A stretch of 64,000 nt of DNA from Hydractinia symbiolongicarpus (lineage: Eukaryota; Cnidaria; Hydrozoa; Anthoathecata; Hydractiniidae): positions 24,676,001 to 24,740,000 of the forward strand of contig NC_079879.1 of the NCBI RefSeq assembly GCF_029227915.1, in the 5' to 3' direction. Below, piece by piece: positions 11,751-50,100 of this stretch (the first letter of the stretch is position 1; each line of letters starts with the position of its first letter). The translations under genes were made by a program, and so were the position numbers. The notes under the pieces are model-generated. The model did no database searches. It was not told the DNA's origin and was given only the letters and a program-made list of their open reading frames with translations.

Positions 11751-12716
11751 TTAAACACAGTTGATATCATATCCAACTGTTTCTTGTTTTTGTCGGATCT
11801 TCAACATACTCTTAACTGCTTCTCGCAACGCTGTCAAACGAACGATAAAATTAATTGCGCGAAATAACCCACTCGATAAAATCGATAAAAATACCAGGTC
11901 TCTAGATACGTGTATGAATTCACAGCTGCAATGTTCACATAAGTTCATGTACAACACAACTAGAAGAACTGGAAGATAATTTACTAGAAATAAAACAAGC
12001 ATCCAGAGGAATGTTGTTGTCACTCGCTTATCCATCTGTGTAAAGTTATGCAAAGTGCGCTGGCGCGATTTATTTGCCGTGTTTAAGTCAGCTGATCCCG
12101 TATTGTTTTCCACAGCAGCTTTCTCACTTTCAGTTAGTCGTCGTTTAAATAAAGCCATTGTCGTCACCATAACAACCATTGTTAAAACAATAGTGGTGAA
12201 ACTGAAAATGGCAAGGTAGCGAATATACCCCAATCTGAAATATGCACCTGCTAATCCACTAGATAAACCCCATGTAAAGAGTAGAAGAAGAATTGTTCTT
12301 CGTTTGGTCATTTTGTTGTAATAATAGAATGGATTTAACAGCACACCTAATCTATCCAAACTCAGTACAGTCATTGAGAGTACGGAAACTCCGTTAAATG
12401 CAAAAAACGTATAATGCATTGCCTTTATTTCATCTGTAGAAATATACTGTTCCATTCCTTCTTTGATGTGGAAACTTAAAGAGAAGATGTTTGCCACCAC
12501 ACCTGCACAAAGATCTGCAGCTGCAATATTTGCAATTACCAAGTAAAAACTTCGATGCAGCATATGACGGTATTTCATGATTGCAAAGAATACTATTCCA
12601 TTGATCGGTACTGTCAGGATAAATAATAGAATTGAGATAGTCGCAGCAAAAAATGACATTTCTTTGATAATAGTTGCAGTTCCGCATACTGCATCCAGAT
12701 TTGATAACATTGTCAT
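11751..12716 (-). CDS. Class A (rhodopsin-like) GPCR, MECA-like, paralogue 1
   Basis: Intronless 321-residue seven-transmembrane receptor acting at the plasma membrane. Landmarks: N39 in TM1, ANIAAAD with D68 in TM2, DRL (121-123, for DRY) ending TM3, W149 in TM4, NYLP with P249 in TM6, and RAINFIV in TM7 where NPxxY would be. It lacks the usual TM3-top cysteine, extracellular loop 2 is very short, and loop 3 carries CEHCSC (260-265). This combination, and the FYLVIA motif before D68, recall melanocortin/EDG/cannabinoid/adenosine (MECA) receptors. There is no TM7 lysine, so it is not an opsin. The ATG at 12716 leaves a short N-terminus without signal peptide, normal for the class. The ligand cannot be inferred. 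Its paralogue lies 4.7 kb away on the same strand. Confidence 0.93.
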   Translation of the reverse strand: MTMLSNLDAVCGTATIIKEMSFFAATISILLFILTVPINGIVFFAIMKYRHMLHRSFYLVIANIAAADLCAGVVANIFSLSFHIKEGMEQYISTDEIKAMHYTFFAFNGVSVLSMTVLSLDRLGVLLNPFYYYNKMTKRRTILLLLFTWGLSSGLAGAYFRLGYIRYLAIFSFTTIVLTMVVMVTTMALFKRRLTESEKAAVENNTGSADLNTANKSRQRTLHNFTQMDKRVTTTFLWMLVLFLVNYLPVLLVVLYMNLCEHCSCEFIHVSRDLVFLSILSSGLFRAINFIVRLTALREAVKSMLKIRQKQETVGYDINCV

Positions 12717-13499
12717 TTTTTTCGTTTGTTATCGTTTGCCAAGAATGTTAAATTTTCCTTCATATGTGAAAACTAAAAAGAATATATAAATATAACGCTC
12801 TCTGTTAATTGAGGCTTGCCAAATAGCTAGTTTTTAATAAGTTTTTTTAAACGTTAGAACTTGTGGGATTTGAAACTCACTTTTACTCACACTAAAACTT
12901 TTAGTGTGAGTAAAAATAGCATTGAATCAGTCGCATGTGAGAAGCAATTCAACAAAATATAACCTTAAAAACTAAATATAATATATTAATGTATGACAAA
13001 AATCACCTGACCTATCGATTATTATATCAGACTAAAATCCCGTTTACCAAACACGATCATCTGTCGTCTCCCTGTTTTTAAGTAGATTCTTATCTTACAA
13101 GTAGCTCGTCTGAAACTTGTTTTGCACAGTTTAAACATAACATCTGGATGCAACGAAACTGCATATTAAATTTCCCTTGTTCACACTAAAAAATCATTTA
13201 TTTTATTTAAACAAATTTTTTTCTGCTAACAGTTCAGGCAAACAAGAACACGTAACACAGAAAATTTTTTGCACTTTTCATAAACTTGATACTTCTTCTA
13301 ATTTTGATTTTTATCTGAATGTTTTTTTTCAACTTGAATGGTACTCTGGAAGAGAGTAAAATTAATATAATATAAATGTCTCGTCTAGACTTTCTCTTAG
13401 CAGTGAAATAAAAATAAAGACGGCCTTTGTATGCTAACAAAATTAAATTTTCAATGTAATAAAGAAAAGATGGGAAACCAATCATTTTTTTTGTTTGTT
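12717..13499. other. GPCR 1 upstream region
   Basis: AT-rich sequence upstream of the minus-strand receptor. Apart from the 12881-12915 palindrome I see no clear promoter motif or exon. Confidence 0.4.
12881..12915. promoter_or_regulatory. 35 bp perfect palindrome upstream of GPCR 1
   Basis: A 17-base arm (ttttactcacactaaaa) is followed by a single c and its exact reverse complement. The centre lies about 180 bases upstream of the start codon of the minus-strand receptor. It could be a dimeric factor site, a hairpin in the 5' UTR or a tiny fold-back element. Function is inference. Confidence 0.45.
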
Positions 13500-17465: not shown

Positions 17466-18455
17466 CTACTGCTTTGATGTATTTAGTGGCACTTCCACGC
17501 TATTTTTCGGATCTGATCGACGGAAAACGCTTTTAATCGATTCTTGTAACGCTGCTAATCGAATCACAAAATTGAACGGTCGACATAAAGCGCTCGATAA
17601 AATAGCCAACCATATGACATCACGTAACACATGCACGAAATCACAATCACAATTTTTACATAGGTTCATGTAAACGATAAGTATAACACAAGGAAGGTAG
17701 TTGAAAATGAACAGCACAAGCATGCAGAGGAACGTTTTCGTAATTCTTTTATCCATTTGCGTGAACTCAATTGTGTTTTCAGTGCGACGTCGCACGTGTA
17801 CAAGCGAATCTGTGTGGCATCGCAGGCGGCTATCGCGTCGTTGTATTTCGTTCGCTTTTGCCATTCTCAATCGTCGTCTCAGCAGAAACCAAGTAACAAC
17901 CATAACAATAAGCGTAAATATCACGGTTGAAAATGCGAAAACCACTAAGAACCGTATATAACCAATATATAAATAAAATATAGTACTCATTCCACCTAAC
18001 AACCAAGCCACAACCAGCAGCATGATCATTCGTGATTTAGTCAACTTACTGTAGTAATAAAACGGACTCAGGATAACACCAAGTCGATCGATGGTTAACA
18101 CAGCCATTGATAAAACTGAGACAGTATTTGTGAAGAAAAATATAAAATGCATGGTTTTCTGCTCAATGTCTGGAAGAGCTACTACACTCGGTCCCAGGGC
18201 TTCTTTTACGTGAAAACTAATTGACATAGGATCACATATTAAACCCATAATCAAGTCAGAAATTGCAATGTTTGTTATAACCAAGTAATAATTCCGGTTT
18301 AACAAATGACTGAATTTATATAGACCTAGCAATATCAGCAAATTTACTGGAACGGTTGTCAAAAATAAAAAGACAGAAAAACCAGCATCAAAATATGAAA
18401 CTCCAGAGAGATTCATTGAAGTTCCCCCGCATTCCTTTTCCATGTTGTTCAACAT
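17466..18455 (-). CDS. Class A (rhodopsin-like) GPCR, MECA-like, paralogue 2
   Basis: Intronless receptor of 329 residues from the ATG at 18455; the open frame extends to 18506 only through non-ATG codons. It is collinear with the receptor at 11751-12716: YYLVITNIAISD in TM2, TIDRL ending TM3, a Trp in TM4, FNYLP in TM6, CRPFNFVIRL in TM7, and a juxtamembrane FTQMDKRITKTF before TM6 shared almost word for word. Loop 3 has CKNCDCDF, matching the CxxCxC of its neighbour. The TM3-top cysteine is missing and loop 2 is very short. Intracellular loop 3 is longer and Arg-rich. The pair looks like a local duplication in same-strand orientation, since diverged. Ligand unknown; plasma membrane location expected. 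Confidence 0.94.
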   Translation of the reverse strand: MLNNMEKECGGTSMNLSGVSYFDAGFSVFLFLTTVPVNLLILLGLYKFSHLLNRNYYLVITNIAISDLIMGLICDPMSISFHVKEALGPSVVALPDIEQKTMHFIFFFTNTVSVLSMAVLTIDRLGVILSPFYYYSKLTKSRMIMLLVVAWLLGGMSTIFYLYIGYIRFLVVFAFSTVIFTLIVMVVTWFLLRRRLRMAKANEIQRRDSRLRCHTDSLVHVRRRTENTIEFTQMDKRITKTFLCMLVLFIFNYLPCVILIVYMNLCKNCDCDFVHVLRDVIWLAILSSALCRPFNFVIRLAALQESIKSVFRRSDPKNSVEVPLNTSKQ

Positions 18456-18599
18456 TTTGGAAGAGTCAAATTCTCTTGAAGCTTTTTTCAAAATAGAATT
18501 CGCCAATTTGTTTTTGTTTATATCTTTGTAATATTATCACACACAAAGTGGAGTATTTTATTTAAAGTATAAATATATTCTTTTATCTAAAATATGGAA

Positions 18600-26741: not shown

Positions 26742-29700
26742 TTAATCAGAACTTTCCGAGGAATCCTTCGCTTTGGCTTTCATGGATTTCAAAGCTCTTT
26801 CACGAAGTTGTTGTTCAGCGTCGGTTGCTTCTTCATTCTCATATTCATCTTCACTATTTTCGGAATCATCATCGTCCTGAAAAATGGTTAACAAGTTTAT
26901 GCACTGCCTGCCTGTATATCTTTTTTCGCTTTTACTTAAAAAACAAAAAAACAAAAATGGCTAAGACCAACAAGGCTGCACTTGACTCCATTGGTCAATT
27001 TCTCAAACTTTCCTAGTTTTTTAAAAGTTCGCACATCCGCACAAGACCTAACATATCTTTAACTCTTTCGAAATGGCCAATGCTTTATTTTTGCAGGTCC
27101 TTCTTAAAACCGTGTATATTAGGTACATACTAGGTAGCTTGGTACACTAATGCTAAGCACGAAACAATGAAGAGGTGTGGCAGGCATTTAATTGTTAGAG
27201 AAAGACACGCGGACTTACCTCATCTGAATAATTTCTTCGTTTCTTAGATTTCCTCTTTTTGGATTTGCTCGATTTATGTTTTTTATGCTTCTTTTTGGAA
27301 CTCTTTCGTCTTTTCCTTTCACGCTCTGGAGAACTTTCCTAAAGTAAAGTAATTACAGTAACAAGGTTGACTGGAGTTGAGTATTAAATCATTAGTGTTA
27401 AGAGGGGTTTGCCAGCGTGACCTTACAATGCCATGCGAAACACCTTTAACATTCCAAGTAATGAAGCTTTTAACAAAATCCACACGGACACATTACATCT
27501 TTATGTAAACAAAAAAAAATTGGAGGAACATTTAAAGCGAGTAGGTACTGAAACTGAAAATTTTCACTCGTCACAGAAATTTTTCAATAATAAAGCTTAT
27601 TCTTACTCGATCTTCACTCGCTAAATCATCCTCTTCCTTTTCTTCCCCACTACTCAACTGAGAGTCTTTTACTTCCTCTTCGTCACTTTCTTCGTTTCTA
27701 GCAGGCTTACGTGGTTCAGGCGATGGAGATCTAAATAAAAACTTTCCTCCATAGCATAAGTATAGCAGACGAAAAACAACAATACATTTTGTGTGACAAT
27801 ATTCAGTTGGCGAGAATCTCGTCTGTTGGAGATTCAAATACCTTTTGCTTAAATCTATTAAATTTTTCAATTGATTCAAATATAGTAAGGACTGTTATAG
27901 TGATCGTTATGGATACATCGGTTTTTCTTTTGTCTGCACACACACACAAGAGTTTACCTTGAAACACGTTTGGATAGCTTCTTGGTTGGAGAACGTGATT
28001 TTTTCTCACTTCGTTTCAACACCACTCTTCTTTTGTCGGGTAATTCTTCTTCTTCTTCGGAAGAACTTTCTTCTTTTCGAACAGGTTTTCTTTCCCGCTT
28101 TGGTTCTGATTCCTCCGTGTCTCTTCTGCGTCTTTTCACCGATTTGCTGGTTTCAAGTTCGTCATCTTCTGACGAAGTCTCTTGTTTTCTGCTTTCTCCT
28201 GTCTTCACTTTTTTTCTTGCCTGCCTTGTTTTGCCATCTGAATCGTCACTTTGTGTTTTATTCTTCTTTATTTCCACGCGTTTTCTTTGCGGACTGTCGT
28301 CTTCAGATTCATCCGAAGTTGCGTCATGTTTACTACGATGCGATCGAACCTCTTCCGAATCACGCCTTTTTCTTTCACTTCTCTTCATCGCCGGTTTATC
28401 GTCGCTATCGTCTTCGTCGGATCCGTGACGTGACTGTCGAACTTTCGTTTGTTTTTTCTCTTTTCTTTCGTTGTCTCCATCGCGTCTTTGAGCGTTTGAC
28501 TTATTTTTTCTCTCCTCTTCGGATTCCGAATCAGATGTTTCCTCCATTCGACGAGCAGCTTCTTCAAGCATTCTACGTCTCCTTTCTTTCGAGCGCTTTT
28601 TATCACGACCGGAGTCCGAGTCTGACTCCGGGCTTCGCTGTTGACGTTGTCTTCGCCGATGCTTCTCTCTTAAACTTTGCGATAGCTTTCTCTCTCTGTC
28701 GCGAGTTTCTTTTTCACGAATTTCTCTCTCACGGGCTTCACGTGCAATTTGCTCCTTTTTCCTCTCCCTCTCCCTTTCTTCACGTTCACGTTCTTTTCTA
28801 ATCTTAGCTTCCTCTTCGCGTTTTCTCCTCATCAAACGTCTTTTGCGCACTTCCGGTGACGTCGATTGTTCTTCAGAGCTGCTCCCCTTCCTCATTCGCT
28901 TTCTTCGTTGCGGAGAACGACTACCGCTTCTACGATCTGTTGCGCGTTTTCTCTTCGGAGAGGGAGAAAAAGAAAACGACCTCCTTTTATGTCTGTTATC
29001 TCTCCTCGGTGGGGACCCAGACGGCGATCTCTTTTTTCTATCCAACCCACCTCGCTTCTTCCTTCGAACATGCTCTTCCGGATCCGAGGACAGCGGTTCA
29101 TTTTTCTTGACAACAGGGGACTCCGATACACCTTTTTTATCAATTGGTTTGTCGCCTTCAGAATCTTCTGATTCCGACTGCTTACGTCTGTAAGTTCTGG
29201 TCTGCGTTTTATTCGACTTGGCATACTGTGGCGAACTTTCGTCGTCTTCTCGCATGAGACCTTCATCAGCAGGCTTGATTTTAACTGGCTCATCTGAATC
29301 CTCATTATCGTTGGGTTGCAACTAAAATATTACAGAAATGTCAACCACAATAAGCGTCTTTCTTTCCATTCGATCTGGATTAAAAATAGAGACCTATCTT
29401 TAATCCACATAGCGTCTAACATTTAACAAAAAAAACTTGCATAAACGACATACCTTGTTCGTATCGTTGCTATGACTTGGCGGAGGTGAAAGTGATGCAA
29501 CTTTGGTCAGTTCACGAAGGTTTTTATTGACTACTTTTGGAGAAGGCGACCTTGAATAGGACCTTCGACGTCTAAAAGAAAACAGGAGCACTTAATTCTA
29601 TAAAGCAAATAAATTCTATTTTCTTTATGTCTAAACTGCATGCGGAAATGCAATTTTGTTTTTTCTTTGTTCACTTGTGCCTGACTTCTAAGTCGAGTTT

Positions 29701-32700
29701 TTAGGACACTGAGGATGGGGGAGGGGGTATACCACCCCTATAGAATTTTAGGGACAAATGGTATGATTTTGAAACTTGACAAGGTAAGTTAGTAGGTTTT
29801 TACTGAAGTCATAGTAATCTATATTGCTTATTCACTTTTTAATATGTGAAGGACAAGTATTATTACATAAGAAGAGATTTTCTTAATAAAAATTAATTTT
29901 TATTCTAATTTCGAGAAATTTCCCAAACAGCTGCGACAAAATGTACAAAATTCACACTCTTGTCTTATAACCGGGAATAAAAATTTACTTCTCCTTCTCG
30001 TAATAAACCGATGCATAATCGGTTGTACAAGAACTTATACGCTACACAAAAAAGAAACTTTAATAGTACCTTCGTTTCGGTGATCTGGAAAAGGACCTTG
30101 AATAAGATCGGCGTCTTCGTCCATAAGAGTGTCGGCGTGAATGTCGACGAGGTGAGCGAGAGTATCGACGCAATGATCTTGAGCGCGATCGTCGTCGTGA
30201 ATGCGACTTGCGAGGCGACCGGGATCGGGATCGTCTCGGCGAAATGGATCTTGATCTTCTCATTGATCGCGATCTTGAACGTTTGGACTCTCTGACAGGG
30301 CTTGAAGAAGCACTTCTCGCTCGACTTTTAATGGGTTGAATTCTAAAGCTCTTGTCAGCTTCATCGTCACTAATTTCTGAATCGGAAGACATGTCAACTT
30401 TGTTGCCACTGTACACACGAGATATAATATCATGGATGGCCTTTCCGAACTTTTCGTCTCCCTCTTCAACTAAATGGAGATGGTCTTGAAAATAGTATGT
30501 AGTATTTAAGGTACCGTCTGGTTGTAGCCAATCCGCGTCTGGTTTCAAGTAGAAGAAGTTTCTTATATGTCCGCTCTTACATAATCGTTTCAAATATTTG
30601 TTAACTTTCAGGTTCTGTGTGCGACGATGACTTGGCTCTAAATCTCGCGGTAGAAGTCCAGTGAGAATAATCTTCGCGTTAGGTTTCGCTTCCTGAAACA
30701 TCATTGCGATAGACCCGATTCCATTGGCAATGTCTTTCGGACTATCCCGGTCAGTATTGTTGGTACCAACATGAATAACAACAGTTTGGGCATTTAACGG
30801 AATCTCTCCGTTTTCAACTCGCCAGAGCACATTTTGAGTTCGATCACCTCCTAGTCCAAAATTTAATGCTTTCAGAGGAGCGAAGTATTTATTCCAGATT
30901 GTAGGATATCGAGCAAGGCCTTGAATAATCGAGTCACCAATCAAAAGAAGGCTCGCGCTTGACGTTTTTGCTATTTCAACATGTTTTTCGTGTTCAGCAA
31001 ACCAGCCTGGCTTCTCTCTTCCGACTGGTGTGGCGGCTGGTGAGGTACAATAACCCACTAGAGATTGGCGGATCTGCTTTTGGTCGCGCATAGCTGGGCT
31101 TGTCAGCAATTCACTTTCTTTAATAGGACTTGGCGGTGACTAAATGCAAAAAACACTAGTAAACATTAGCACATGTAAACATACATATTTATTGTTCTTT
31201 CCTGAATTTTTCCCTAAAATCAGTATGATTATCACAGATCAGAAAAACAAAAGACAGTAGAAATTTACATGTTTCTTAAGGACTGAATAACGTTTATTTT
31301 GAACAAACTCAAACTTTTTAATTTCCTCATTTCCACTCCCAGAGAAAATAATCTAGTTTTTAAATAAAAAGACTCAAGAGAGTGCTAAAAGATAATACCA
31401 AAAAAATGAATAAAAAACTACAGGGGAAAACCAGTTTATCTAATGTTCATTAATCATGAAGCCATCCATTCATCTTTTATTGCATGGCGCCTGATATTTA
31501 AACCTAACCAGCCGTGCTAACATCAACAAAAGAAGATTCAAAACAGAGAAAACGTCAGTCGTGAAAAAACCGCCGTTATCGTTCTTTGAGCTATTCCACA
31601 AGTTTTTTTACGGTTTTCCAGGTTATCCTCTTGCTTAAATTAAAAATCTTAGATAATGAAGGGAGATACGATATGAACTTTTCTATTTATACTATAATAT
31701 AAGCAAACAAACAAACAAACACAACAAAACAAACGAATCCCATGCATTCGTTTTACAGAAAGATAATTTCTGCACTGTATACAGTAAAAACACTTACATC
31801 ACGTCTAGGTCTACTAGAATTTCTTGCAAGAATTCTGGCTTTGTCAATGTCTTTGGATGTGCTGTCCGCCTCTACAGATTGTGTCTTCTTCAAGCTGGCC
31901 TGTATGCGTTCAGTCTCTTGCTGGAAAAAAAAAAAGAATTTATAAGGATAGTCTGTAAGGTTCATTTATTTCAAGATTTCTTCATACTTGCTAAAAATTT
32001 TACATAAAATTTGACAGAACTGTCGTTTTAATGCAGTTGAATATGTTGTTCCATGGGATATGAAGATCACAATGTTATATAAAAAACGCAAAGAAAAAAT
32101 TATAATACTAACTATTTTTACTTGATTGAGATAAAATTCAGAATCATCAATTTTAACATTTTGTTAACCAATAAAATGTACCTTTCTCTGTCGAATTTCT
32201 TCTTTTTTCTTCTCTAAAAAGTCACTGGGGATGCCACCAATATTTTCCTGTGCACTTAGCAGGTGTTTCCATAATTCTCCAATAAAAATTCTTGCATTCT
32301 TACCATTCAAGAAACCAGTAATGGCAATTTGTAATTGTTTTGGGTCAGGATTCTAAATAATACACCCAACTTTAAAATTATGTAGCCACACAACCAAGAG
32401 GTTTTCATAAATTAAGAAAAAGAAATTAAAAGGAATGAATTGGTAAATATAGTATCTACCAAACTTTTAAATCCAAAATTCAGCATGTTATAAAGTTTAG
32501 AACAAAAATAACTCCTAGCCTTTCCAGAAATCTTACTTAATGCTAAGATATCCAAAAAATATTTATGCCTATTTTAAATGTTCTTTTGGGCTCAGGTAAA
32601 CATAAAAATATAATTAGGCCTTATTTCAGGTTCAATTCATAAAGGCATATAAAATCCAATTTCTTTTCAGTTGGCTGGACTAGTTTAATTGTACAAAATG

Positions 32701-35700
32701 ACGTCCAAGTTAAATTTTTAGCTTGATTTAGCGCGGAACACATGAATATATGATTTTATTTCCTTTGCAGTAGCAGGTTAATAAAAAAGCATTTGGAAAC
32801 AAAGATATTCTTCAAAAAGTCCAGTACTTTTAAGAAGTTTAACACTGACCTTTGATTCTTCAAGCAGTTGGAAAACATATTCAATAAGCACTTCATCTTC
32901 AATTCCACCAAGCAGTTGTGTTATTCTTTTTTGTATCCATGGCTTCACGACGTCAATATTTACTTTATCCATGTTAACCTGTTGGAAAAGGGGTAAACAA
33001 TTGTACAGATATATTTCGAACTACTTACATAAGACTGCTGGCTGATGAGAAGTTAAAAAAACATAAGGTAGGGCATGTCAATGAATGAATGTGTACCTTT
33101 TCTTCCAATGCAGGCTCAAATTTCATAGACTTCATCAGCTTTTTTTGTTTATTTGCAAACCTGGAATCTTGTTCAGAGGTGGTACCCTAAAGTTACAAGG
33201 GCATTTTTTACGAACACTTAAGTATACTCATGTTACAGTGCCATGCTATATATTTAAGTCAGCGCCAGCACTTCGATTGACCCAAATGTGAATGTTCTTC
33301 TCTTTATGTCAAACAAATATAAATTAAGTTTATATTAATGTTTATGATAATGTAAAATAACTAAATAAGTTTTGCCCGTTTCACAATAAACAGAAATCAA
33401 CTTAAGATGGCCTCAATTTTCTGTGAAAAAATGTTTATTACAAGTCTTTGTAGTGCAAAATAGCACAGTAAACTTTAGTGGCAAAAAAAGAATAAAATTA
33501 TATTGCAGTTTGATTACGAAATCAGCATGTGATGCAATCGTATGCTGATTTTTTATTAAAGTTTTGTTGTGCTGAATGTGAAGAAATTTAGGATATTGTG
33601 GAATGAAAGAACACTTGATGGTCAAAACTAGCACTAACAAGTAACCTGACTAGGGTATGTAAGTATTATTAGACATATTGATTATTCATCATTCATTGAT
33701 TATTCATCATCATTCTCGGCTTAACGTCCAATAAATTTAAATTTGCAAAAACATTTTCTTTACCCCTGTACACTGCACAGAGGCTTTGTTTTAGCGTAAG
33801 GAACACACAAAGTGCAAGTTCCAACAATGTACGGCAGGGAATTTCAACCCAAATACGAAGAAGTCGTAAGCAGACTCGTTAATTAAACTTTATTACTTGT
33901 GGGGCAAACAGATATTTAAATTAAATTAAATTACGGAAAGTCGAACGGCCGCTAATAATAATATTTAATAAACCTTATGTTCAATGAATCATAAAAATTA
34001 TTATCTAAAAGAATATTTCGTTATTAAAGAAGTTTTTTTTCTTATTAATTATATTATCTTTTAGGTATTTCAACTTAAATAATGCTGAATTTCTTTTAAA
34101 TTCTACAAAAGGCGACCTTACAAAGATCAAAATATTGTTGCATTTTTTTATAAAATCATTAAAATGAAACTCACAAAGCCTTAATATAGCCTGGTAACTG
34201 GTAAATGGTAGCAATTAAATTCACATTATCAACATTTGATAAAGACTGCTCACGTGCGATTTGTTGTGAGTTCAGTAAAAGAATGATCGTTTATATTTAA
34301 GGTTTATTTAATAAATTTTCTTTGTTATAAATACAATAATTTTTAATTGCAGCAACGTTTTGCGCGTGCGATGAATCGCACAGCTAAACAAACCTGCACA
34401 TGTGTGGGGGCGTGCGGTGCGACTGCACGCCTCTCACGGAATGGCCTGACAGTTTCCAACAGGTAGAAACTTTTCAATTAGTTTTTACTTTTTAACTAAA
34501 CACAAAAATTCATTTTATAACAGCAAATGCACAGGCAAGTTGTTCTTTAAAAAAATTTATAACAAGACCAAAAGTAACAAAAAAATGTGCCCATCAAAAA
34601 ATGTTTTAGAAGATTTTATTAAAAAATGGTATAGGGAAGAAAGTTTGTGCAATGTTGAAGCCTAAGTTTACAAAAATTCGTAAAATTCTTTCACAAGGTC
34701 AGGAAGATAATAAAAATTTTAAGGAATCTGTCTAAACTTTTGCCCAAAAGGAATCATAACCGCAAAATGTTTATTCCCCCCCTTCTTTTCAAAAGACTCA
34801 TTTTAACTTTCTACATGTGCACAGGTCTATACCAAATTTTGTTGTTTGTGGGTTCATCCTAATTTTAACTAGTCATTAATGTGCCAAAAATTCAGTAAAT
34901 TTGTAAAGGGTAGAGTTTTTTACTTTTACTTGTGCTGAAATCAATCTTTTAGGGGTCAGAATTACCAAATGATTTTTGGTTCTATTAATGATAGAGGTTA
35001 TATTAAATCTGGTTGCTGGTTGACTGACATGCTTCCTTTAAGCAAATATTGTAAAAAAATATTGTGAAAAGGTCGGACTGCTTATTTTCACAACTTATGA
35101 TGCTAAGTTGCTAGTTATAAACAAAAATTTCTGAACTAACACACTAGGTATATAGAGTCAATTTTTAAATATTTTTTTCACAGAAGCTAGCTTTAAATAT
35201 AGAAAATGGATTGTTGCAGTTTATTTAAAAGCTTTCTAGGTCAAATTGTACAGTGGCTCACAAGTGTTTATAGCACAAATCTACTCCATAAAACAAAAAA
35301 ATCAATGGCACAAAAAATGCACAAAAATTCATGGTACAAAAATGGTGCAGTACAAGAAAATTCCCATGGAAGGTTTAGACACGATGGTATTAATAGTATC
35401 AATTTATATATTGGAAATTTTATTGATAGCACAAAAAAGTTTAAAAGTGCATTTTCAGAACTTGAGCAGAAATCAATGTGCATATTTTACATAGCTAACG
35501 ACACAAATATTGGGGAAGATACCATCTATTATTTCCAGGAGGGGTCATGTCTGGGGATGTTTAGAGTATTTGATGCTCAGTTTGAGCTAGGCAGACCTAA
35601 TTAGGGTCAGCACTTTATCAGACAACTACCTATAACATTTAACAGCCCACACAGTGTGCCATTTCCCCAATCCCCCTCACATGATTAGGGTTAACCTGGG

Positions 35701-38299
35701 CCATTGTAATATTCAGTTAAAAACAATTAAATTAAATGTGTTCTAAACATTTATAATGCGGTCAAAATATTCAAATATGGCCAATGCCTATTTGTTGCTA
35801 TCCAGTGAGAAAAAAATGTCCGCAAAAGTAAAATGATTTCAACTTTGTAATTAAGATTAACGGGGGATTTTACGAAGCTAATCAAACAATGAATTCGCAG
35901 CGAAATGTATCTGAGCATGTGCAGTTTTGTGTGATTTGATATTGCTTCCAAAAAATTAGCTTCAAAGTGAAGTCGAAGCAGCTTCTACTTCTTAGCAGCA
36001 AAATATTTGCTGTAAACTTTTTAGCAATCTTCAGTGTTTGTTGTTAAAAAACACTCATTACTGCAAAATAATTTAAAATGACTGCCTTGTTTTTAATACC
36101 CACAACTGTTTAAATTTAGTAATTTAAATTTGGCACGTTTTTTGTTTTTCATAGAATTCAAAAAGATATTTTGCAGCTTATTCTCCAACAAATTTGCTAT
36201 TCACAATTCACTTCGTGAAAATCCCCCTTAGAAGCGCGTAATCACCCTGTAGGCAACTTTTTTTGAGGTACCTATTTTATTGCAAAAATTGCAAGATATA
36301 CATGAGAAGACATTATCCAGAAAATTTTATTGAAAACTGACAACCAGAACATGTTCAAATGTTTCATAGAAATAGCAAACCTACCCCAATTACTCTTCGC
36401 CTACAGAACCGCCATTACATTTCTTTGCATGAATCATGCGATAATAAACGCACAGCAAAACCGATCACATGATTGCTGGATTCATGCCATTACAGAAAAA
36501 ATTATGAATAAGGGAGAGCATCTGTAGCTGTGTTTCCAATGTAATGCTTTTATAAATGTATCAACAAAGTTCCGAACATGAAAAATCAGATAAATCAATC
36601 GAAGTTTCCGTGTTATTTTTTATTATTTAAATGTTTTAACTTGCTGAAATCAGACTTTTTTGCAACAACAACCTCTTCTTCCTGTTGTTTCTGAAGATAG
36701 CTTTGCCTCTCTAGCTGTCTTACTTATTGATTATTTTCCTTTGTTTAAACAGTTAGTTGTTTCCTTACGGAGACATTATCAGATCTATACAATTAGAATA
36801 CCTAAATTTTTAGAATTTCCCATTTTATTGCTCTAAATTTAATAATATCCATAATGCTTTAACTATCTTCAACCATCACAATGTGCATTCTCCCCCATTG
36901 GGTTTTTTTGCTCATAATATGCAATAATCCTGGTCATGCTAATAAAAAAAGACAGAGCGTGATAAACATTAATTATCATAATTATTAACCACGAGACAAT
37001 GTTGTGATTTCTTCCTTCTGTTTCGTTTTGTCTGTGGTCTCCAAAAACAATGGCGAATAGAATAAAGAGAAAATTATTTTTTTCTTTTGTGCTTTTCCAA
37101 TTAAAACTCTAGGATAAAATTTCTTTCCATTTTTTGATGCCATGTTTTGCAAAGAAAAATCAAGCCAAAAACAGCATGGTGAACGGAGGCCACCACATTG
37201 GTGATTTTATCGAACTCCATTTTAGAGCTCATTTAAAGTCAAGGTTGTTTGTTTACCTAGGGTTTCACACGAACATTTTGTAACGGCCTGCATATTGGAC
37301 AAGAATAAGAGGCCAACAAGATCGTTAAATATGGCGGCTAAAAAAAAACACAATAAAATCAAGATCTTAAAGTACCATTATTTCCATTTCTAGTACGTTT
37401 TACATCCTCAAATAACCTTTGCGATAATTCAATTGTACATGCGTTCCTACGGCTCTCCATCGTTTTACAATATCGTAAAGAAGGAGGTAAAAATCGTGTT
37501 TTTATGAGAGTTTGTTAGAGACGAAAGCGTGTTTTCTCCAGTTTTTTAACTTCCGTCGTATCAATTTCTTTCAAATTTTCAGGAAAAGTTAATGATAATA
37601 AGATACAACTTATGTGTACTTTTCATTAAAAACAAAACGTGACAAGAAAAGTTATCACGAAAAAACGTGTTTTCTCCTTAATACAGTAATAAAAGTGTGA
37701 TGTTTACCTCCTCCGATCGCAAAGTAAGCTGCGATGGAGTGCTGGTTTTTGTGAATTATCGTAAAGGTGTATTTTTAGGAAAGTCATAAGTCCGTCCGAA
37801 CTTCGAAGTAAATAAAAAAAATGTAGATGTTAATTTTTTTCGAAAAAAAGGGTGATTACGCACCTTAAAGAGCTGCTCAATAAATGAATAATTGCAAACA
37901 ACTGTTGAGCTTTTTTCTATCTAGCTATATCTATCAGGGGTGCTGTTGTACTTCTTAGGCTGTGACTTTTATGCACTGGTGAGTTTTTTGTGCCATGGGA
38001 TAGATTTGCGCTGCACCACTTATGGGCCACCGTACAATTAAGAATTCGACAACTCAATGTGATTCATTGATAATATTTTTGCAGTTAGCTAGCTAGCTAG
38101 CTAGCTTATCGAGTTTTCTACCATAAAGATTGTTAATTTTTTAGAAAAAAAACAAAGGGAAATACATGTGGCTATGATAAGTAGCATCTTTTTGTTTATA
38201 ATTGTATTACATTGACCTATATTGCTGAAACTTATACCAATAAAGACTGTTTATATTGTAGGTGAATATCCTTACCCTGAAAAAGCCTGCGTCCGCCAT
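26742..38299 (-). CDS. SRRM1: SRRM1 splicing coactivator with embedded PAF-acetylhydrolase (SGNH) domain
   Basis: Eleven minus-strand exons join in phase (1155 codons plus stop): 38276-38299, 33097-33186, 32850-32978, 32182-32352, 31798-31920, 30070-31139, 29454-29571, 27958-29321, 27607-27730, 27219-27338, 26742-26876. The start MADAGFFR followed by GTTSEQDSRFANKQKKLMK is the SRRM1 N-terminus. The PWI domain follows (VDVVKPWI-type core IDVVKPWIQKRI, then TGFLNGKNA and GELWKHLLSAQENIGGIPSD). The C-terminus has a Lys/His-rich block and LRERALKSMK, as in vertebrate SRRM1. Between lie long RS, SP and RE-repeat regions expected in a nuclear pre-mRNA splicing and 3'-end-processing coactivator. The sixth exon adds a full SGNH hydrolase of about 200 residues, not part of SRRM1 elsewhere to my knowledge. 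Without its ~250-residue surroundings the protein is about the 900 residues usual for SRRM1. Intron 1 is about 5.1 kb. Confidence 0.9.
27958..29321 (-). other. SRRM1: SRRM1 exon 8: RS/RE low-complexity domain
   Basis: This 1364 bp exon encodes about 454 residues of acidic-Ser, Arg-Ser and Arg-Glu repeats, for example RKREEEAKIRKEREREERER and repeated SEEE, SDDES and KRSRS blocks. This is the phase-separating or splicing-factor-binding type of region typical of SRRM1. It starts TTGCAACCC after a tttag acceptor and ends AAG|gtaaac. The opposite strand shows long shadow frames rich in Ser and Phe, which are artefacts of the codon bias. Confidence 0.88.
30414..31010 (-). other. SGNH/GDSL hydrolase domain (PAFAH1B-like) inside SRRM1 exon 6
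   Basis: Residues ~223-421 of the SRRM1 product align end to end with PAF acetylhydrolase IB catalytic subunits: LLLIGDSIIQGL (block I, Ser249), LNFGLGGDRTQNVLWRVENG (block II), VVIHVGTNN (block III), ILTGLLPR, and DHLHL (block V, Asp398 and His401). All catalytic and oxyanion-hole positions appear present, so hydrolase activity is possible. The region has no intron, and the same exon encodes SPPSPIKES before it and an SR-rich tract (SRSRS, SPRRSRSRSPRKS) after it. This is what insertion of a processed cDNA or an intronless gene into an RS exon would leave. Substrate is unknown; vertebrate relatives deacetylate PAF-like ether lipids. Confidence 0.9.
33187..38275 (-). other. SRRM1 intron 1 (~5.1 kb), repeat-bearing
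   Basis: The intron opens GTAAGG at 38275 and closes with ...ctttag at 33187. It contains an inverted-repeat element (35859-36229), a (GCTA)n run at 38087-38105 and several unassigned ORFs. The longest ORF (35206-35604, plus, 132 codons) resembles no family I know and lacks splice or promoter support. An intron this long next to the promoter may hold regulatory sites, but I cannot point to any. Confidence 0.7.
35859..36229. mobile_element. ~370 bp MITE in SRRM1 intron 1
   Basis: The left end cgggggattttacgaag is matched at the right by its near reverse complement (cttcgtgaaaatccccc). TTA-containing sequence abuts both outer ends (ttaac / ttaga), hinting at but not proving a TTA target. No ORF of note. 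A related gcgtaatcaccc end pair also occurs at 36237-36248 and 37850-37863. Confidence 0.5.
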
Positions 38300-38597
38300 A
38301 CTCCTTCCTTGTTTTGTCTATCCCGCGAGGACAGAAGTAGAATTTATAAACCGGTCTGTAGTTTAAAACAGTGACTATAGGTAGACAAAATCCGAAACTG
38401 AATAAAGTAAAATCAATAAAATATTTAATAAAAACTTAATTAGGGAAAAAAGTATAAATAAGTATATAACTAGGTTTTATTAAGCGAAGATTTTAAATTT
38501 TACAATTCAACTGTGGACATTTCATTGTAATTCAAACATACGGACTCTGGTCCTTTTTTTATTAAATTGCAAAAAGCTTTCACATGCACCAAACAAC
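38300..38597. promoter_or_regulatory. Divergent promoter region between SRRM1 and SURF6
   Basis: Only 298 bases separate the SRRM1 start codon (minus) from the SURF6 start codon (plus), so both 5' UTRs and core promoters must lie here unless SRRM1 has an upstream non-coding exon. I see no convincing TATA box. The stretch has a mirror of gtctatcccgcgaggacag and otherwise AT-rich sequence. A head-to-head pair of nuclear housekeeping genes is a common animal arrangement; co-regulation is inference. Confidence 0.6.
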
Positions 38598-39596
38598 ATG
38601 GCAGCTGACAATGTGGCAGAGGTTGAAAAGTTAAAAAATATAGTAAAAGAAACTACATGTTACTTTTCTTCTGTTGTGGAGCTTATTCCAGCTAAATTTT
38701 ATGTTCAAAATGAATTCGAGGACGGTAACGTTAAACCTGGTAGGAAGAAGAAGTTAAAACCAGAAAATAAAAAATTGCTGGCCAAAAAGGCCAAATTTCT
38801 AAAGTTAGATCCATCAAACCATAAGACTATATCTGAACTACAAAAAGAAGTGGAACGTAAAGAGACAGAGTATTTTGCAGAAGAGATTGTTGAAATTGCA
38901 GAACAAGTCCAACCTGTTAAGGTATCAAGTATTCCAAGTGCATCTTTGGATGAGTTGAGGGAGAAATTACATGCTAAAATGCATCATCTTAGAGGTAAAC
39001 GAAAGATTTTAGCTGAAGATGACAAGTTAAAAGTGAAAAATGCACGCATGGCGAAAAAAGATATAGATACAAAGAAAAAAAAACAAAGGAATGAAACTGA
39101 AAATATAAAACGTGTTAGTGAGCTTGAGGAGAAATCAATAAATGGCGATATAAAAAATATCAAGGGAGAGGTAGTTTTTAGTAAGTTTGATTTTGCCGTT
39201 GGTATATCTGACAATAAGAAAAAAAAGAAAGCGGATATTAAAAAATTATTACAAATTGCTGAGAAAAAGCAAGAAAAAATAAAGAATTTGCAACAAGAAG
39301 ATTCGGGTAAAGCAAATGCCTTAAAGAAAAAGATAGCATGGGACAATGCTGTCAAGAAAGCTGAAGGACAGAAACTTAAAGATGATCCTAAACTTCTTAA
39401 AAAGTCTATAAAAAGAAAGGAAAAGTTAAAAGAAAAAAGTAAGAAACGTTGGGATGATAGAACTGCTACTGTTGCTAATGAAAAAGAGGAAAAACAAAAA
39501 TTAAGAAAGCAACATTTAAGAGAGCGCAGGGATGAGAAATTAAATAAAAAGAAAGGAGTAAAAAAGGTCAAGAAAAAGTCAAGGCCTGGTTTTTAG
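38598..39596 (+). CDS. SURF6: SURF6-like ribosome-biogenesis protein
   Basis: Intronless frame of 332 residues with a good start context (caacATGG). The protein is very rich in Lys and Glu. The C-terminal half carries the SURF6/RRP14 signature: LDELREKLHAKMHHLRGKR, GEVVFSKFDF, WDNAVKKAEGQKLKDDPKLL, KKSIKRKEKLKEKSKKRWDD, and a basic tail ending in KKKSRPGF. SURF6 (yeast Rrp14) is a nucleolar RNA-binding protein needed for large and small ribosomal subunit assembly; multiple basic clusters fit nucleolar targeting. Length is close to that of other animal SURF6 proteins. A poly(A) signal AATAAA at 40054 is a possible end. It is divergent to SRRM1. The family call is firm; the N-terminal 100 residues are poorly conserved as usual. 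Confidence 0.93.
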   Translation: MAADNVAEVEKLKNIVKETTCYFSSVVELIPAKFYVQNEFEDGNVKPGRKKKLKPENKKLLAKKAKFLKLDPSNHKTISELQKEVERKETEYFAEEIVEIAEQVQPVKVSSIPSASLDELREKLHAKMHHLRGKRKILAEDDKLKVKNARMAKKDIDTKKKKQRNETENIKRVSELEEKSINGDIKNIKGEVVFSKFDFAVGISDNKKKKKADIKKLLQIAEKKQEKIKNLQQEDSGKANALKKKIAWDNAVKKAEGQKLKDDPKLLKKSIKRKEKLKEKSKKRWDDRTATVANEKEEKQKLRKQHLRERRDEKLNKKKGVKKVKKKSRPGF

Positions 39597-44123: not shown

Positions 44124-47100
44124 TTACATTTCAAAACTGCTATCAATATAACCATTCTTTAAAATACCTTTCTTGTTTCCAACGTGAGACACACCACTCA
44201 GATTCACATCTCTATCAGGTATCATACCATTTTTAATGTTAAAACTGTTTTCCCTTTTTTTACTTTTAGGCTTGTTTCGTGTTATCATTTGCACGGAATC
44301 CCTGCTACTTGCATCATCAAAAGAACTCTCGTACGGAAGAATATCCGTCCCAAAACGGCCGTCATGCTGCAGTCGCCGTATTGTATTAACTGGTAAACTG
44401 ATTTGCGTTGAAAGAGGTAACAATTTTGGATCTCGTCTGGCATTACGAGTGCGGTTAACCTTTGTCCTGGATCCAATCTGTTTCGAAGAGCCACTAGAAG
44501 CTGGGGAAAACATTTGACAATCTTCTTGATCAGTAGAACGCGTGCTGCTACATAGCGAGTCAGTTCCAGTTTCGTGACTTTGATATCCGGATTCGTGCAC
44601 TATATAAACTCTACTGTCAAAATTAGTATCGGCTGCAGATACAACTTCCGCGTCTTCAGATTTGTGATTTTCTAGAGAACATAAGTTACATGGAAGTTTA
44701 TCCATGCAATTAGTCTCATTTGGTTTGGAGCACGCGAAATTAATATCTGATTGCACACTCGCCCGAGTACAATTTCCTTCCTTATCATTTCGTCCAAAAT
44801 CAGACAAATATTTTGGTACACTCATTGATGGTTTTAATTCTCCATTACCCAAACATTTTTTTGTATTTTTTACATATGGGGACTGGATGACATGGAGACG
44901 CCCCTTTTTTGGGTGTCTTATAAACGGTGGTGACACATTAGAATCGGTCTTGCAACCGTTTCTGTTATCCGCAATCCCATTGGTTCGGAATATTGGGCTT
45001 TCGAATGGCTTATTGCGAATCGGTTTAACACGAAAAGGCTTTGATACTCCATTATTTATAATATCCAACAATTGAAGATCGCCCAGTGTCTCATCGCTTA
45101 TTGATTTTCGTTTCAGGGCAAGCTCAACGTCTTCAGAATTAGTTTTATAATCATTCAAGTATGAACATTTGCGTTGAAGCTGCGTACTCCGTGGAGGCTT
45201 GATCACGTGATAATCAAGAAACTTTCTTTGAATCTGTACGCTTCCTGGATAGCCAAGAGTAGTTTGATTTCCACTACAAATAGAGTTACTATTACTTTGG
45301 GAGCGCGATAGGATCGGCCTAACATCCACTGTGGATTTCTTTTCAGGTGTATTATTACGCGACTCACACCTGCTTGTTGCAATGGTCGGCTGACTATTCG
45401 TCGTGCTATTTGTGAGTGTTGGACTTGTAATTATCAGCTGTGGAGCTTTTATACTTTTTTCATTAAACTGCGCTGGAGGTGGTATCAACTCATTGGATGA
45501 AGATAGTGGAGATGTGTTTAGAAATTCTTCTGGTGGTGGTGGTAAAGATGATGGAGACTGAACACGAAAATCATTTTGTTGGATCAGATCATTACTCTTC
45601 ATTTTCAAGTGTATTTTTTGGTTGTGTTTCACATTGTTAATGTCAAGAGGGAACAGTGCTGCAACGTTTTCATTTAAGTTATAAGGACTGTTGTGACTTG
45701 GTGTAATGACTGTGTAATACCTACACATTTCTCTCGTTAACTTGCCCCCGTTTTGTAGAGGTGCTTGCTCCATGTTTGATAATCTCTCCATTATAATGTT
45801 ATTATTATCTCCATCATACAGCTCCTCATTTTCTAGAAATTCTTGCTCATCTTCGCTTGCTAAAAAGAAGAGTACGTGAAATATAAAAACTCTCACAATA
45901 TTTTAAATCGGGTTAGTTTAGCGAAAACAGGTTAATAAAAAGTCTTTGTGGTATTTTTATTTATTCTTTCCATTTCTGGCTATCTAAAAACTATTTTTTT
46001 CTTTTCAAGGAAGCGATATATTTTTTAGCTTTTAGAATCCTTTGGCATGTTTACTTACCTTTCTGTCTCATTCTTTTCGCTTTTCTTAATCGAGCCCGTC
46101 TGCAATGATCAAGCATAAAACATAGACTCAAAACAAGTCCAAGAAATATGGCAAGTATCACAGCAAATATTAAATGCATTTTGTTCCCTAAAATATAACA
46201 ATAATAAAACAGTGCAAAGCACAACTGAAAAAAGAATATAAAAAAATTAATAACAATATATATATAATATATATAATTGCATTGTGGATTATTTAGTTAG
46301 AAGTTTTAAAACTAGGGGCAACAACATTGTAAAATTACAACATGATCTAGACCAGGTCAGGAAAAAGAATAAGTGAATATTCATAGTTTAACAAAAATGC
46401 AATACCAACAATTTTTTGCATTTTTATTGCAAGATATACAGCTTTAAAGGCTAATGCTTACTTTTGATAAACTCGCTATCCGAAAGTAAGGAATAAGCAG
46501 TCATAATCCAGAAACCGTGGGTACGTTGTGCCTCTCTCTTTGACGTCATTGTAGTATCAGCAACAGTTGGTTCTGTGATAAAGAGTTTGGTAAATGTTGA
46601 TGGATGCAAACCTCCTGTACTTTTCAACGATTGGTCAGAAGATTGTGTTGGTGTCAAACGCTCTATCAGAAACGAAGAAAAGGTGAGACATAAGTAACTT
46701 CTGTATGTAACATATGTAACCGAGGCAACCGTTACTTATGTAACATGTTACATAAGTAACGGTTGCCTCGTAAGAGCATCTACCGTGGGGCACCGCAGAA
46801 TAAATTATTAAGTAATAAATCCTTTTCCCAGTTACTCCCCCACTCCCTTCGATTTATTCACTACACTTGAGTAACAAGGCTCCTAAAATACAAAATGGTT
46901 ATCATTTTGTACGTTGAAACTAGGATAGACAGAAAGTTCTAGGTTAAAATAATTAACGAAATTAAAGAAATATTTACGTGTTCTTTCACTTTCTGGTTTG
47001 GTTGGCGTCTTTTTCGCTGGCAATTCTAATAAAGAAATAAAATCTCTGTACCTATACAAAGTTAAACGAAATTCTTAAATAAAAAAATTAAAAGTTATTT

Positions 47101-50100
47101 TCTAACTTTTAGCATACCGTTTGTTGTTGAGAGAACATATATTTTCTTGTAAAAACAACAGAATGATATCATTTTAACCCAATTTCGCGACAGATGCTTT
47201 CTGTGGTTAAGTAACCGACATATGTAACAGCAAAAACTCAGTTAAAAAACGTATTCTCACAATTATATGGTAAATAGATGAAGAAAGGAGGCTGATGACA
47301 TCATAAAATACTCTTTCTACTTTCTCTGATAAAAAAGTTTTATTAGGTGTGTGTCTATAAGAGTGTCACCTAAAATGATTGTGGCAAGGAAACCGGAAGG
47401 TCTTTGAGGGCCGTGCTAGAAAGTATCGATCGGTTAACATTTCCATATTTGTGGTTCCTGCACTTTTCGAATGGATAAAAAAGTAAAATAATATTAATGT
47501 TAATAATAATAAATAATTACCACACGAGTATTGGACATCGAAAGCAAGATATTCGTCTTCTTCACATTGTTCGGTGAAATCGTACGTTGATACTGAAATA
47601 GTACATTGTCTACCTTGCTCACAATTGTTCTGTAATTTACTCGTGATGTCCTTCGAACAAAACAATGGTTGATTTTGATTACAAATCTCTAAATCGGGAT
47701 CTAAACGTCCCGAAGTAGCCGCGTGAATGTTTATGACACGATCTGTTGGACAATTCAAGCGAACTTTTGTGCCTTCGCAACTGGTCACATTGAATTTTTT
47801 CAACTGCCCTGATAAATCTATAAGTGTAATAAAAAGCTGTAAAAAAATTACCAGTGAGTGGATTGCTTTAAAAGATATTCACTAGTTTTTGTTGTCTGAA
47901 ACTGTTAAAACACGAGAGAAATGTCGCGAGGCCAAGAAAAGGGCGATTTTTTGGATTAATCACCAAAAGTCCACAGTCTTGAATATTTGACGAGAATAAT
48001 TCTCGCACGAGAGAACCAGAACCAAGAGATGCCTTGAAAAAGCTTCACAACTTATTTTCTGGACCTTAAGTCCTGGAATTAACCTGTAATTAAAAAAACT
48101 CTCTCTATATAAGATATACTTTTACTGAAATTTGTGCATTCTGACATTGGCGATAAGTAATTACCTTGCAGCTTAAAATTGCTAAACGTAAGATTAATAT
48201 GGTTTCTCCTGGCACCTAATTTAAATGATAATACACGAGTGTAAGTTTTGCAAATACTTGATACGCAAATATGCAACTAGATGTAAATTCCAAGACACAT
48301 TAAAAATTGAAAACTTTTTCCAATATCAAAAGCGTTCAAAAAAAAATCTTCTCCGGTTTATTATTATTTTTTCTTTTCTTCTTTTTTAAAATACTTTATT
48401 TCGTCTATTTTCTTTTACCATTTGAAGACAATGTTAAAATTTTAAAGTTAATTACACTATTGTATTCCCTCTAAAAGCCACCTTATACCCAATTCTTTTT
48501 ACCTTACTATTCATGTGAAAGCCTAGGGACTCTGGAGACGAGGTAGTTTTTATAAATTAAACAGCAATAAATAAGCGCATGAATGAATACGAATGAAATC
48601 TATTTCATTTCATATTAACTTTTTTATAGTTGTGAAAATCGTTTCAAACATGTAACAACTGTGATAACAAAATAAGTGAGAAAATAACATGATAATTTAT
48701 GTAAAATACATGTGTGAATAGATTTTAAGCTTATCACATACAGCTATTGGTAAAAAACTTTGATTTATTTAATCGACCAATAAGTCAAATATGTGAAAAT
48801 AAAGAGATATTAATTCTCCATCGATTGTAGCTCACAGATCTGTAGGAATAAAAATAAAAACACTTCAACAGTTTAAGGCTGTAATGTCGATGCCTTTTTT
48901 TTTCTACGCGATCTTTATGGGGTCGCGCTAGAAGTCGACTGAGTTAATAGGCAAAAAATACACGCAGGTATCCATGGTCGTGCCTGGGGACCAGAAAATG
49001 TTTTCAATATGGACTATTCAGATCTCCTTGAAACAAAGATGTTTTTACTCAAAATGTTTATTGCTAGTTATGGTAATGAAAGAAAATACGTAATTTTTGT
49101 TGCTACTGGCCTGATCCTATTTTGCTTTCGGATTAATAAACTTTTTGGAATCGCACAATTAAAGGTGGCATTAATCCACAGGCACAAATTTAAAGAAAGA
49201 TGCTCATCCTGGTAAAGGAAGAAACTTTCTATCTTAACTACATAAGAGCAATCAGGAGATATAAATATTTCTGGGGTTTTTCAAATCTTATTCTTTAATG
49301 TTACTTATTACTGTCGCAAAAGCTGATTTAGCGCACCTTTTAAATAAACGCCTGATAGCTGTACCAACGTTAAGAGTTTAAAAGATTTGATGCATTATTT
49401 GGGAAAAAAATTTACGTAGTTACCAAAATTACAACGTATATTTTTAGAACTACGGTTTTTGATAGCCCCGCGATTTCTAACGGTTGGATGTATTAAAGCA
49501 AAAGCTCAGAAGTATTTTTTTATTATTTATAACTAATTTAATTCTGCTTGGAAGCAATGATTTTTTTTTAAATATCAATCCAGCTCGCTCTATAAATCCC
49601 AATACAAACGATTTATCTGGTTCGAGTTCAAATGTAGTAAAATATGACGAATCCTAATAAAATCCCTAAACCCGTGGATAAATCCACGAGTTCGTCTGTT
49701 CTTTATTTACCGCTACTTGCAGTACCAATTTGCGCAGAGATAGACCTATAGGGTTTTTTATTAAAGAGACTGTCGGTGGCCCATGAATAAATCCACGTGC
49801 TCGCCCGTCTTTTATATACCACAGTTTGCGTGTCTTGATACTGAGGTTACCATTCTGCGCATATACAGACAGATAACGCGGTTATTTTTAAAAAGAAGAT
49901 TAAATCTAACCTGTCGGATCCTTTTGACATCTCCCATAGCACTGCACAGTTGTTCCATCCGAAAGAATAAATGTTTGAAAAACAACACGATTGATATTAG
50001 AAACTAAAAAAAAAGTGGAAGTGATTAATAAAAAGGAGCACAGTTAATATGCGCAAGTACAACTGCTAACATATTTTTACCAAACAAGGATACTGATTCT

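Follow-up and report, generated by a model that had tools for sequence, protein, structure and literature searches.

A PAFAH1B-type SGNH hydrolase domain within SRRM1 of a cnidarian near Hydra: a putative mRNP-tethered esterase

The window, i.e. the whole stretch of 64,000 nucleotides that was analysed, contains an SRRM1 gene of 11 exons on the minus strand (38299-26742), with GT/AG borders throughout. When joined, the exons give 3468 nt in one frame, encoding 1155 residues plus a stop, with no internal stop. Exon 1 (38276..38299, minus strand, as are all of the exons) encodes MADAGFFR, a start that is identical in the Hydra record P0001, and lies 5 kb upstream of exon 2 (33097..33186; GT/AG, phase 0). 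The first and second halves of the PWI domain are encoded by exon 3 (32850..32978; PF01480, 8.1e-11) and exon 4 (32182..32352; PF01480, 2e-11) respectively, and exon 5 (31798..31920) encodes a linker with the motif SVEADSTSKD, which is also found ahead of the SGNH part of the protein P0113. Exon 6 (30070..31139) contains an SP-rich lead, an SGNH hydrolase domain and an RS tail. The RS region continues in exon 7 (29454..29571; phase 2) and is followed by a charged low-complexity body in exon 8 (27958..29321), by exon 9 (27607..27730; GT/AG borders), by a Lys/His block in exon 10 (27219..27338) and by the C-terminus LRERALKSMK plus stop in exon 11 (26742..26876). A SURF6-like gene in one frame (38484-39593, plus strand; PF04935, 1.3e-31) faces SRRM1 exon 1 (38299) in head-to-head orientation, and the two genes possibly share a promoter. 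Elsewhere on the minus strand of the window there are two single-frame ORFs resembling rhodopsin-family GPCRs (11754-12728 and 17469-18533; 7tm_1), a SUEL lectin domain (47369-47878; 4.9e-8) and a 592-codon frame that gave no Pfam match (44127-45902).

Comparison with solved structures identifies the 179 residues ahead of exon 6 as SRRM1: they match its chain in the spliceosome (6ff4_Y, 3.9e-57, residues 3-178) and the SRm160 PWI structure 1mp1 (1.7e-41). The gene shares its N-terminus, PWI domain and KKEEI linker with SRRM1/SRm160 of animals and plants, and shares its RS and charged body and its LR.RAL.SM end with the SRRM1 proteins P0001 and P0002, to which the aligned C-terminus is 48% and 49% identical respectively. 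All of the features by which we recognised SRRM1, i.e. the N-terminal region with PWI, an RS-rich body and the conserved C-terminus, are present, and the first-pass annotation, which had assigned the exons around exon 6 to SRRM1 and kept all 11 in phase, was correct on both counts. A PF01480 profile search of the genome (480.9 Mb, 76 contigs) returned three matches, two of which are the exon halves of this gene while the third lies on contig C11, and found no second SRRM1, with or without an SGNH domain. On the sequence evidence, the gene is the single-copy SRRM1 of a cnidarian near Hydra.

Exon 6 (31139-30070, minus strand) is 1070 bp long and is open for 356 codons, which has a chance probability of ∼2e-9 at the composition of the exon and 1e-12 at that of the window; the other five frames contain 12-25 stops. 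It matches Pfam Lipase_GDSL_2 (PF13472, 2.4e-15), and matches seven solved PAFAH IB catalytic-subunit sequences, which we take to be PAFAH1B2 and PAFAH1B3, at 5.8e-38 to 1.9e-36 (best two 5.8e-38 and 2.4e-37). A profile search against solved structures also placed PAFAH1B relatives best (6.4e-58). The SGNH domain occupies SRRM1 residues 205-429 (30390..31064, minus strand), between the PWI part and the RS tail. Ser249 (30930..30932), Gly277 (30846..30848), Asn306 (30759..30761), Asp398 (30483..30485) and His401 (30474..30476), all on the minus strand, align with PAFAH1B3 Ser47, Gly74 (oxyanion hole), Asn104 (oxyanion hole), Asp192 and His195, which we take to be the key catalytic and oxyanion residues of PAFAH1B. 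At the positions of PAFAH1B Leu48, Thr103 and Leu194, which presumably favour acetyl groups, the window protein has Ile250, Thr305 and Leu400. Passages of PMC3905857 describe SGNH hydrolases as having a catalytic Ser with His/Asp, and a Gly and an Asn that form the oxyanion hole, and name the five corresponding key residues in ZfL2-1. In exon 6, the Ser, Gly, Asn, Asp and His all lie within the blocks that are conserved among SGNH/GDSL hydrolases, in agreement with the earlier claims of a complete hydrolase with an RS tail in one frame of the exon and of an intact catalytic triad.

We used homologue searches to determine whether the arrangement recurs. When the full-protein search was scored on the SGNH part, two of the 49 matches contained both PWI and SGNH: P0001, which is NCBI SRRM1 isoform X1 of Hydra vulgaris and has PF01480 and PF13472, and P0002, a EukProt protein that is a full-length SRRM1 with PWI and SGNH. 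The PWI-SGNH-RS fusion is therefore already in public databases via the Hydra vulgaris record; this overturns the first-pass statement that no animal protein combines the two, and gives a positive answer to its proposed check for the domain in SRRM1 of related cnidarians. When the search was scored on the PWI part, PF13472 was present in the same two proteins out of 64 matches; the other 62 had no annotated SGNH domain, and the named ones were from fish, a tick, rotifers, Trichinella, plants and an alga. The search samples homologues by shared words and its coverage is far from complete, so these counts cannot date the insertion of the SGNH domain. An exon-sized search gave 334 matches, and among the best 120 of these there were 11 proteins (P0112-P0122, 69-98%) in which an RS tail comes after SGNH, the order seen in the window, including P0112, whose exon is 98% identical to exon 6, and four (P0123, P0124, P0126 and P0128) with flanks of the P0002 type. 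We infer that these 15 exon-sized look-alikes are cnidarian SRRM1 exons. In P0113, whose source contig may be RNA or DNA, an exon-5-like stretch (IQESLKKTLSVEADSTSKD), SGNH and RS follow one another in one frame. The same architecture in P0001 and P0002, together with the 98% identical exon in P0112, rules out a private insertion or the misassembly that had been named as a ground for refutation. Open-licence papers yielded no description of an SRRM1-SGNH fusion, and subscription papers could hold one. Two long proteins, P0030 and P0017, have the same SGNH domain and no PWI by Pfam; P0030 was matched at its SGNH part alone in Pfam and PDB searches, and P0017 faintly resembles the body of Hydra SRRM1 (E 0.039). 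These may be further fusions of this domain.

Between the window protein and Hydra P0001, the SGNH part is 83% identical (187/225), compared with 74% (104/140) for the N-terminus and PWI, 49% (26/53) for the linker, 58% for the RS region and 34% (134/398) for the later body. Against P0002, whose RS part looks frame-garbled, the order is reversed, with 59% for the SGNH part and 70% for the N-terminus and PWI. Ser, Gly, Asn, Asp and His are all present in each of the 18 SRRM1-type rows, the window included. A wider alignment of 69 rows comprised two PDB sequences and 67 selected out of 170 sequences with the domain; every row has the Ser, Asn, Asp and His, and 66 have the Gly, the three rows that differ being bacterial. 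The neighbours of the kept residues vary in five of the 13 RS-tailed rows (G276A in P0115; D278A in P0121; D278E in P0117, P0119 and P0120). Some of the 170 sequences, mostly LINE, are without one short motif scanned; in the SRRM1-type rows P0115 and P0121 it is 'GG[DE]' that is missing, with the oxyanion Gly kept in both when read residue by residue.

The genome also contains a canonical PAFAH1B gene, found by tblastn on contig C3 in at least five exon pieces, the last of which has a TAG near its 5' edge that we read as an intron border. This gene is 47% identical to PAFAH1B2 (107/228, five pieces) and 50% to PAFAH1B3 (99/198, four pieces), compared with 37% (79/214) and 39% (72/183) for the SRRM1 domain. 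A recent copy of the host PAFAH1B is therefore not favoured, as the host gene is nearer to mammalian PAFAH1B than the SRRM1 domain is. PAFAH1B2 and PAFAH1B3 have the same five key residues as the window domain at 37-39% identity; however, they are stand-alone proteins, whereas the window domain is fused into SRRM1 in one exon and falls in a separate clade. This clade unites the SRRM1-type, LINE and paralogue domains, with support of 99/96 (69 rows), 100/100 (62 rows, seven dropped), 96/98 (68 rows) and 88/77 (15 rows of such kind), and stands apart from mammalian PAFAH1B in all trees. The SRRM1 rows fall into two sets in the free tree, and one SRRM1 clade that includes P0017 was not recovered, although the AU test did not reject it (p 0.111; p 0.207 with LINE_B rows added). 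The clade of SRRM1-type, LINE and paralogue domains is adjoined by group D (P0201, P0203, P0205, P0218 and P0224), whose members have SGNH with charged flanks, look like exons of unknown proteins and likewise stand apart from mammalian PAFAH1B; three of the four trees recover them as a single group.

PF13472 matched the genome at 130 places, of which 13 besides the window were examined (L001-L008 and L009-L015, two places being in both sets); among these only L009 is a close relative, the rest giving weak matches or none (P0203 on L001, 6.6e-7). L009 (1672-3462, on contig C2) encodes a stand-alone SGNH paralogue in one 597-codon frame with charged flanks, 54% identical to the SRRM1 domain. This paralogue is represented by P0193, a Hydra vulgaris protein named 'PAFAH IB subunit alpha1', and by the kin of P0193: they are 54% identical to the window exon and share with it the flank SPATTP..RDNK.GW, and several of the kin have SSDE..SF.FER after the domain. 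Unlike SRRM1, they have no annotated PWI, and in the window's genome they correspond to the single open frame of L009. A scan of viral contigs gave 26 pattern matches and no relatives, and phage records gave no match.

Close relatives of the domain are found in ORFs that also encode endonuclease and reverse transcriptase (P0008 and P0032; in P0038 the reverse transcriptase match was below the cut-off), with up to 59% identity to the SRRM1 domain. In one LINE set, P0130 and P0007 have SRRM1-like sequence upstream of the domain, starting KKEEIRLRKLEQERIQANL and extending across the border between exons 4 and 5 of the window gene. P0130 matches P0002 at 3e-11 with 35 of 109 columns identical, 45 gaps and the last ∼11 columns inside the domain, and P0127 has another SRRM1-like stretch upstream (24/46, 4e-10). 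A further LINE set (P0032, P0031 and P0230) aligns with the stand-alone protein P0196, the N-terminal part of the latter included, with 222-231 identities in 328-330 columns and 61 gaps. SRRM1-like sequence upstream of the domain in LINE ORFs points to transfer from host to LINE, and the alignments favour this direction in two cases, without amounting to proof because the gene models may have been joined wrongly. A search of the window's genome with the SGNH query gave 25 matches, i.e. SRRM1, the C2 paralogue, 16 longer matches at 42-43% and seven fragments, one of which lies in the canonical PAFAH1B gene. Ten of the 16 longer matches were examined and are near-identical; the longest frames in five of the copies are 1516, 1515, 1226, 794 and 435 codons, the last without the SGNH part. 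In the one copy scanned (L111:969-5516), SGNH, endonuclease and reverse transcriptase lie in one 1516-codon frame with SGNH N-terminal. In a tree with three of the 16 copies, their domain has a long branch and groups with the paralogue rows rather than with SRRM1 (96/95).

Several known systems resemble parts of this arrangement. The CR1/L2 LINE ORF1 esterase ZfL2-1 (PDB 4c1b; 2.4e-4 to the window exon) is likewise, according to passages of PMC3905857, an SGNH domain in a nucleic-acid-associated protein, although it is part of a retrotransposon. The window domain lies in an 11-exon host gene and not in an element with endonuclease and reverse transcriptase, and tblastn with the LINE ORF P0008 matched the window only at the SGNH part. 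According to passages of PMC4021074, a mobile element has spread the fish Texim genes, which are of the SGNH type and related to PAFAH; however, this element is a Helitron rather than a LINE, and SRRM1 is not involved.

The inclusion of exon 6 in SRRM1 is predicted from frame and homology. Skipping exon 6 alone would cause a frameshift and end the protein at 194 aa; loss of both exon 6 and exon 7 would preserve the frame and give 759 aa, so an SRRM1 isoform without the SGNH domain is possible. If intron 6 were retained, the SRRM1 frame would stop at 30060, at most 10 nt past the donor (...KRRYY, stop; 30060-30069). P0112 ends in the same way, and a short PWI-SGNH-RS form of SRRM1 produced by intron 6 retention is conceivable. 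It could be argued from this early stop and the in-frame double skip that SRRM1 mRNA lacks exon 6, either because the exon is skipped or because it forms a nested gene of its own. We regard this as extremely improbable, given that a single exon encodes the SGNH domain and the RS tail in the same frame, that loss of exon 6 shifts this frame, and that the domain is present in two other full-length SRRM1 proteins. Domestication, i.e. acquisition of the SRRM1 domain from a LINE esterase, would fit the close LINE relatives, the SGNH-endonuclease-reverse transcriptase family in the genome and the weak SRRM1/LINE branching, where the fork joining P0002-type and LINE rows has support of only 44/1. However, the SRRM1-like sequence upstream of the domain in P0130 and P0007, the match of another LINE set to P0196 including its N-terminus, and the vertebrate LINE esterase 4c1b, whose match is far weaker than that of PAFAH1B, make this direction improbable.

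The ultimate source of the domain clade is a separate question, as a bacterial origin (from Verrucomicrobiota or Planctomycetota, rather than from animal PAFAH1B) would leave the fusion itself unchanged. Bacterial homologues, mostly from these two groups, are 32-41% identical to the domain (best 80 of 441 loci), and against the window domain the best bacterial tblastn score is 139 bits, compared with 135 by blastp for PAFAH1B2. The cnidarian-type clade is separate (100/99), and bacteria, PAFAH1B and the cnidarian type form an unrooted three-way split in a tree that used 24 of the best 80 of 441 bacterial loci and two mammalian PAFAH1B sequences. Nothing in this split favours bacteria over PAFAH1B, and we consider a bacterial source a minority possibility. 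As the split is unrooted, the wording that it supports is 'PAFAH1B-type domain' and not 'copy of PAFAH1B'; of the first-pass proposal that a PAFAH copy landed in an RS exon, the complete in-frame SGNH domain stands, whereas a simple PAFAH1B copy does not, given the separate canonical gene nearer to the mammalian proteins and the similar scores of bacterial homologues. By sequence similarity the SRRM1 domain is of PAFAH1B type; in the trees it falls in a clade distinct from mammalian PAFAH1B. A different kind of alternative accepts the fusion and proposes that the SGNH part serves as a binding or dimerisation module, with catalysis not being what selection keeps. Such a module has a precedent in Oskar, a regulator whose architecture includes an SGNH-like domain, and pairing could profit a protein with long disordered regions. 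According to passages of PMC3905857, however, Oskar is a non-catalytic SGNH protein, whereas the window SRRM1 has lost none of the five catalytic residues. These residues are kept in all 18 SRRM1-type rows while their neighbours vary in five of 13, which makes a purely binding role rather unlikely, although it is the chief competitor of the esterase reading.

The reading that we consider probable is that a PAFAH1B-type SGNH domain is a fixed part of SRRM1, acquired before the window lineage and Hydra split, and that it works as an mRNP-tethered acyl esterase. The domain would have been held in frame between the PWI domain and the RS tail since before that split. Passages of PMC12858978 describe SRRM1 as residing mainly in nuclear speckles, with a PWI domain that binds nucleic acid and with roles in splicing and exon junction complex (EJC) formation. 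As in other animals, the PWI and RS parts would direct the cnidarian protein to pre-mRNA/mRNP within nuclear speckles, and the SGNH part would be a small-acyl (acetyl-type) esterase carried to the mRNP as a tethered enzyme. Catalysis is predicted to proceed through Ser249-His401-Asp398, with Gly277 and Asn306 as the oxyanion hole. A candidate target would be a nuclear ester, e.g. a speckle lipid or an O-acetyl group of an RNP protein. SGNH domains may, in addition, pair and so connect two SRRM1 molecules.

SRRM1, conserved as a factor in splicing and the EJC, is to our knowledge not known as an enzyme. A more speculative extension, which we put forward tentatively and think unlikely as it stands, is that cnidarian SRRM1 is a splicing-complex enzyme that brings a live acyl esterase to nascent mRNP and removes an ester mark, and that retrotransposons repeatedly took the domain, in one family together with SRRM1 sequence, so as to exploit or imitate the way in which the host handles its mRNP. 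Hydra and Hydractinia are amenable to knock-down or gene editing. A hydrolase active site kept whole inside SRRM1 would make it possible to test directly whether nuclear RNP biology includes a step that removes esters, and the LINE relatives would provide a test case of host-to-retrotransposon domain capture that may bear on the source of some LINE esterases.
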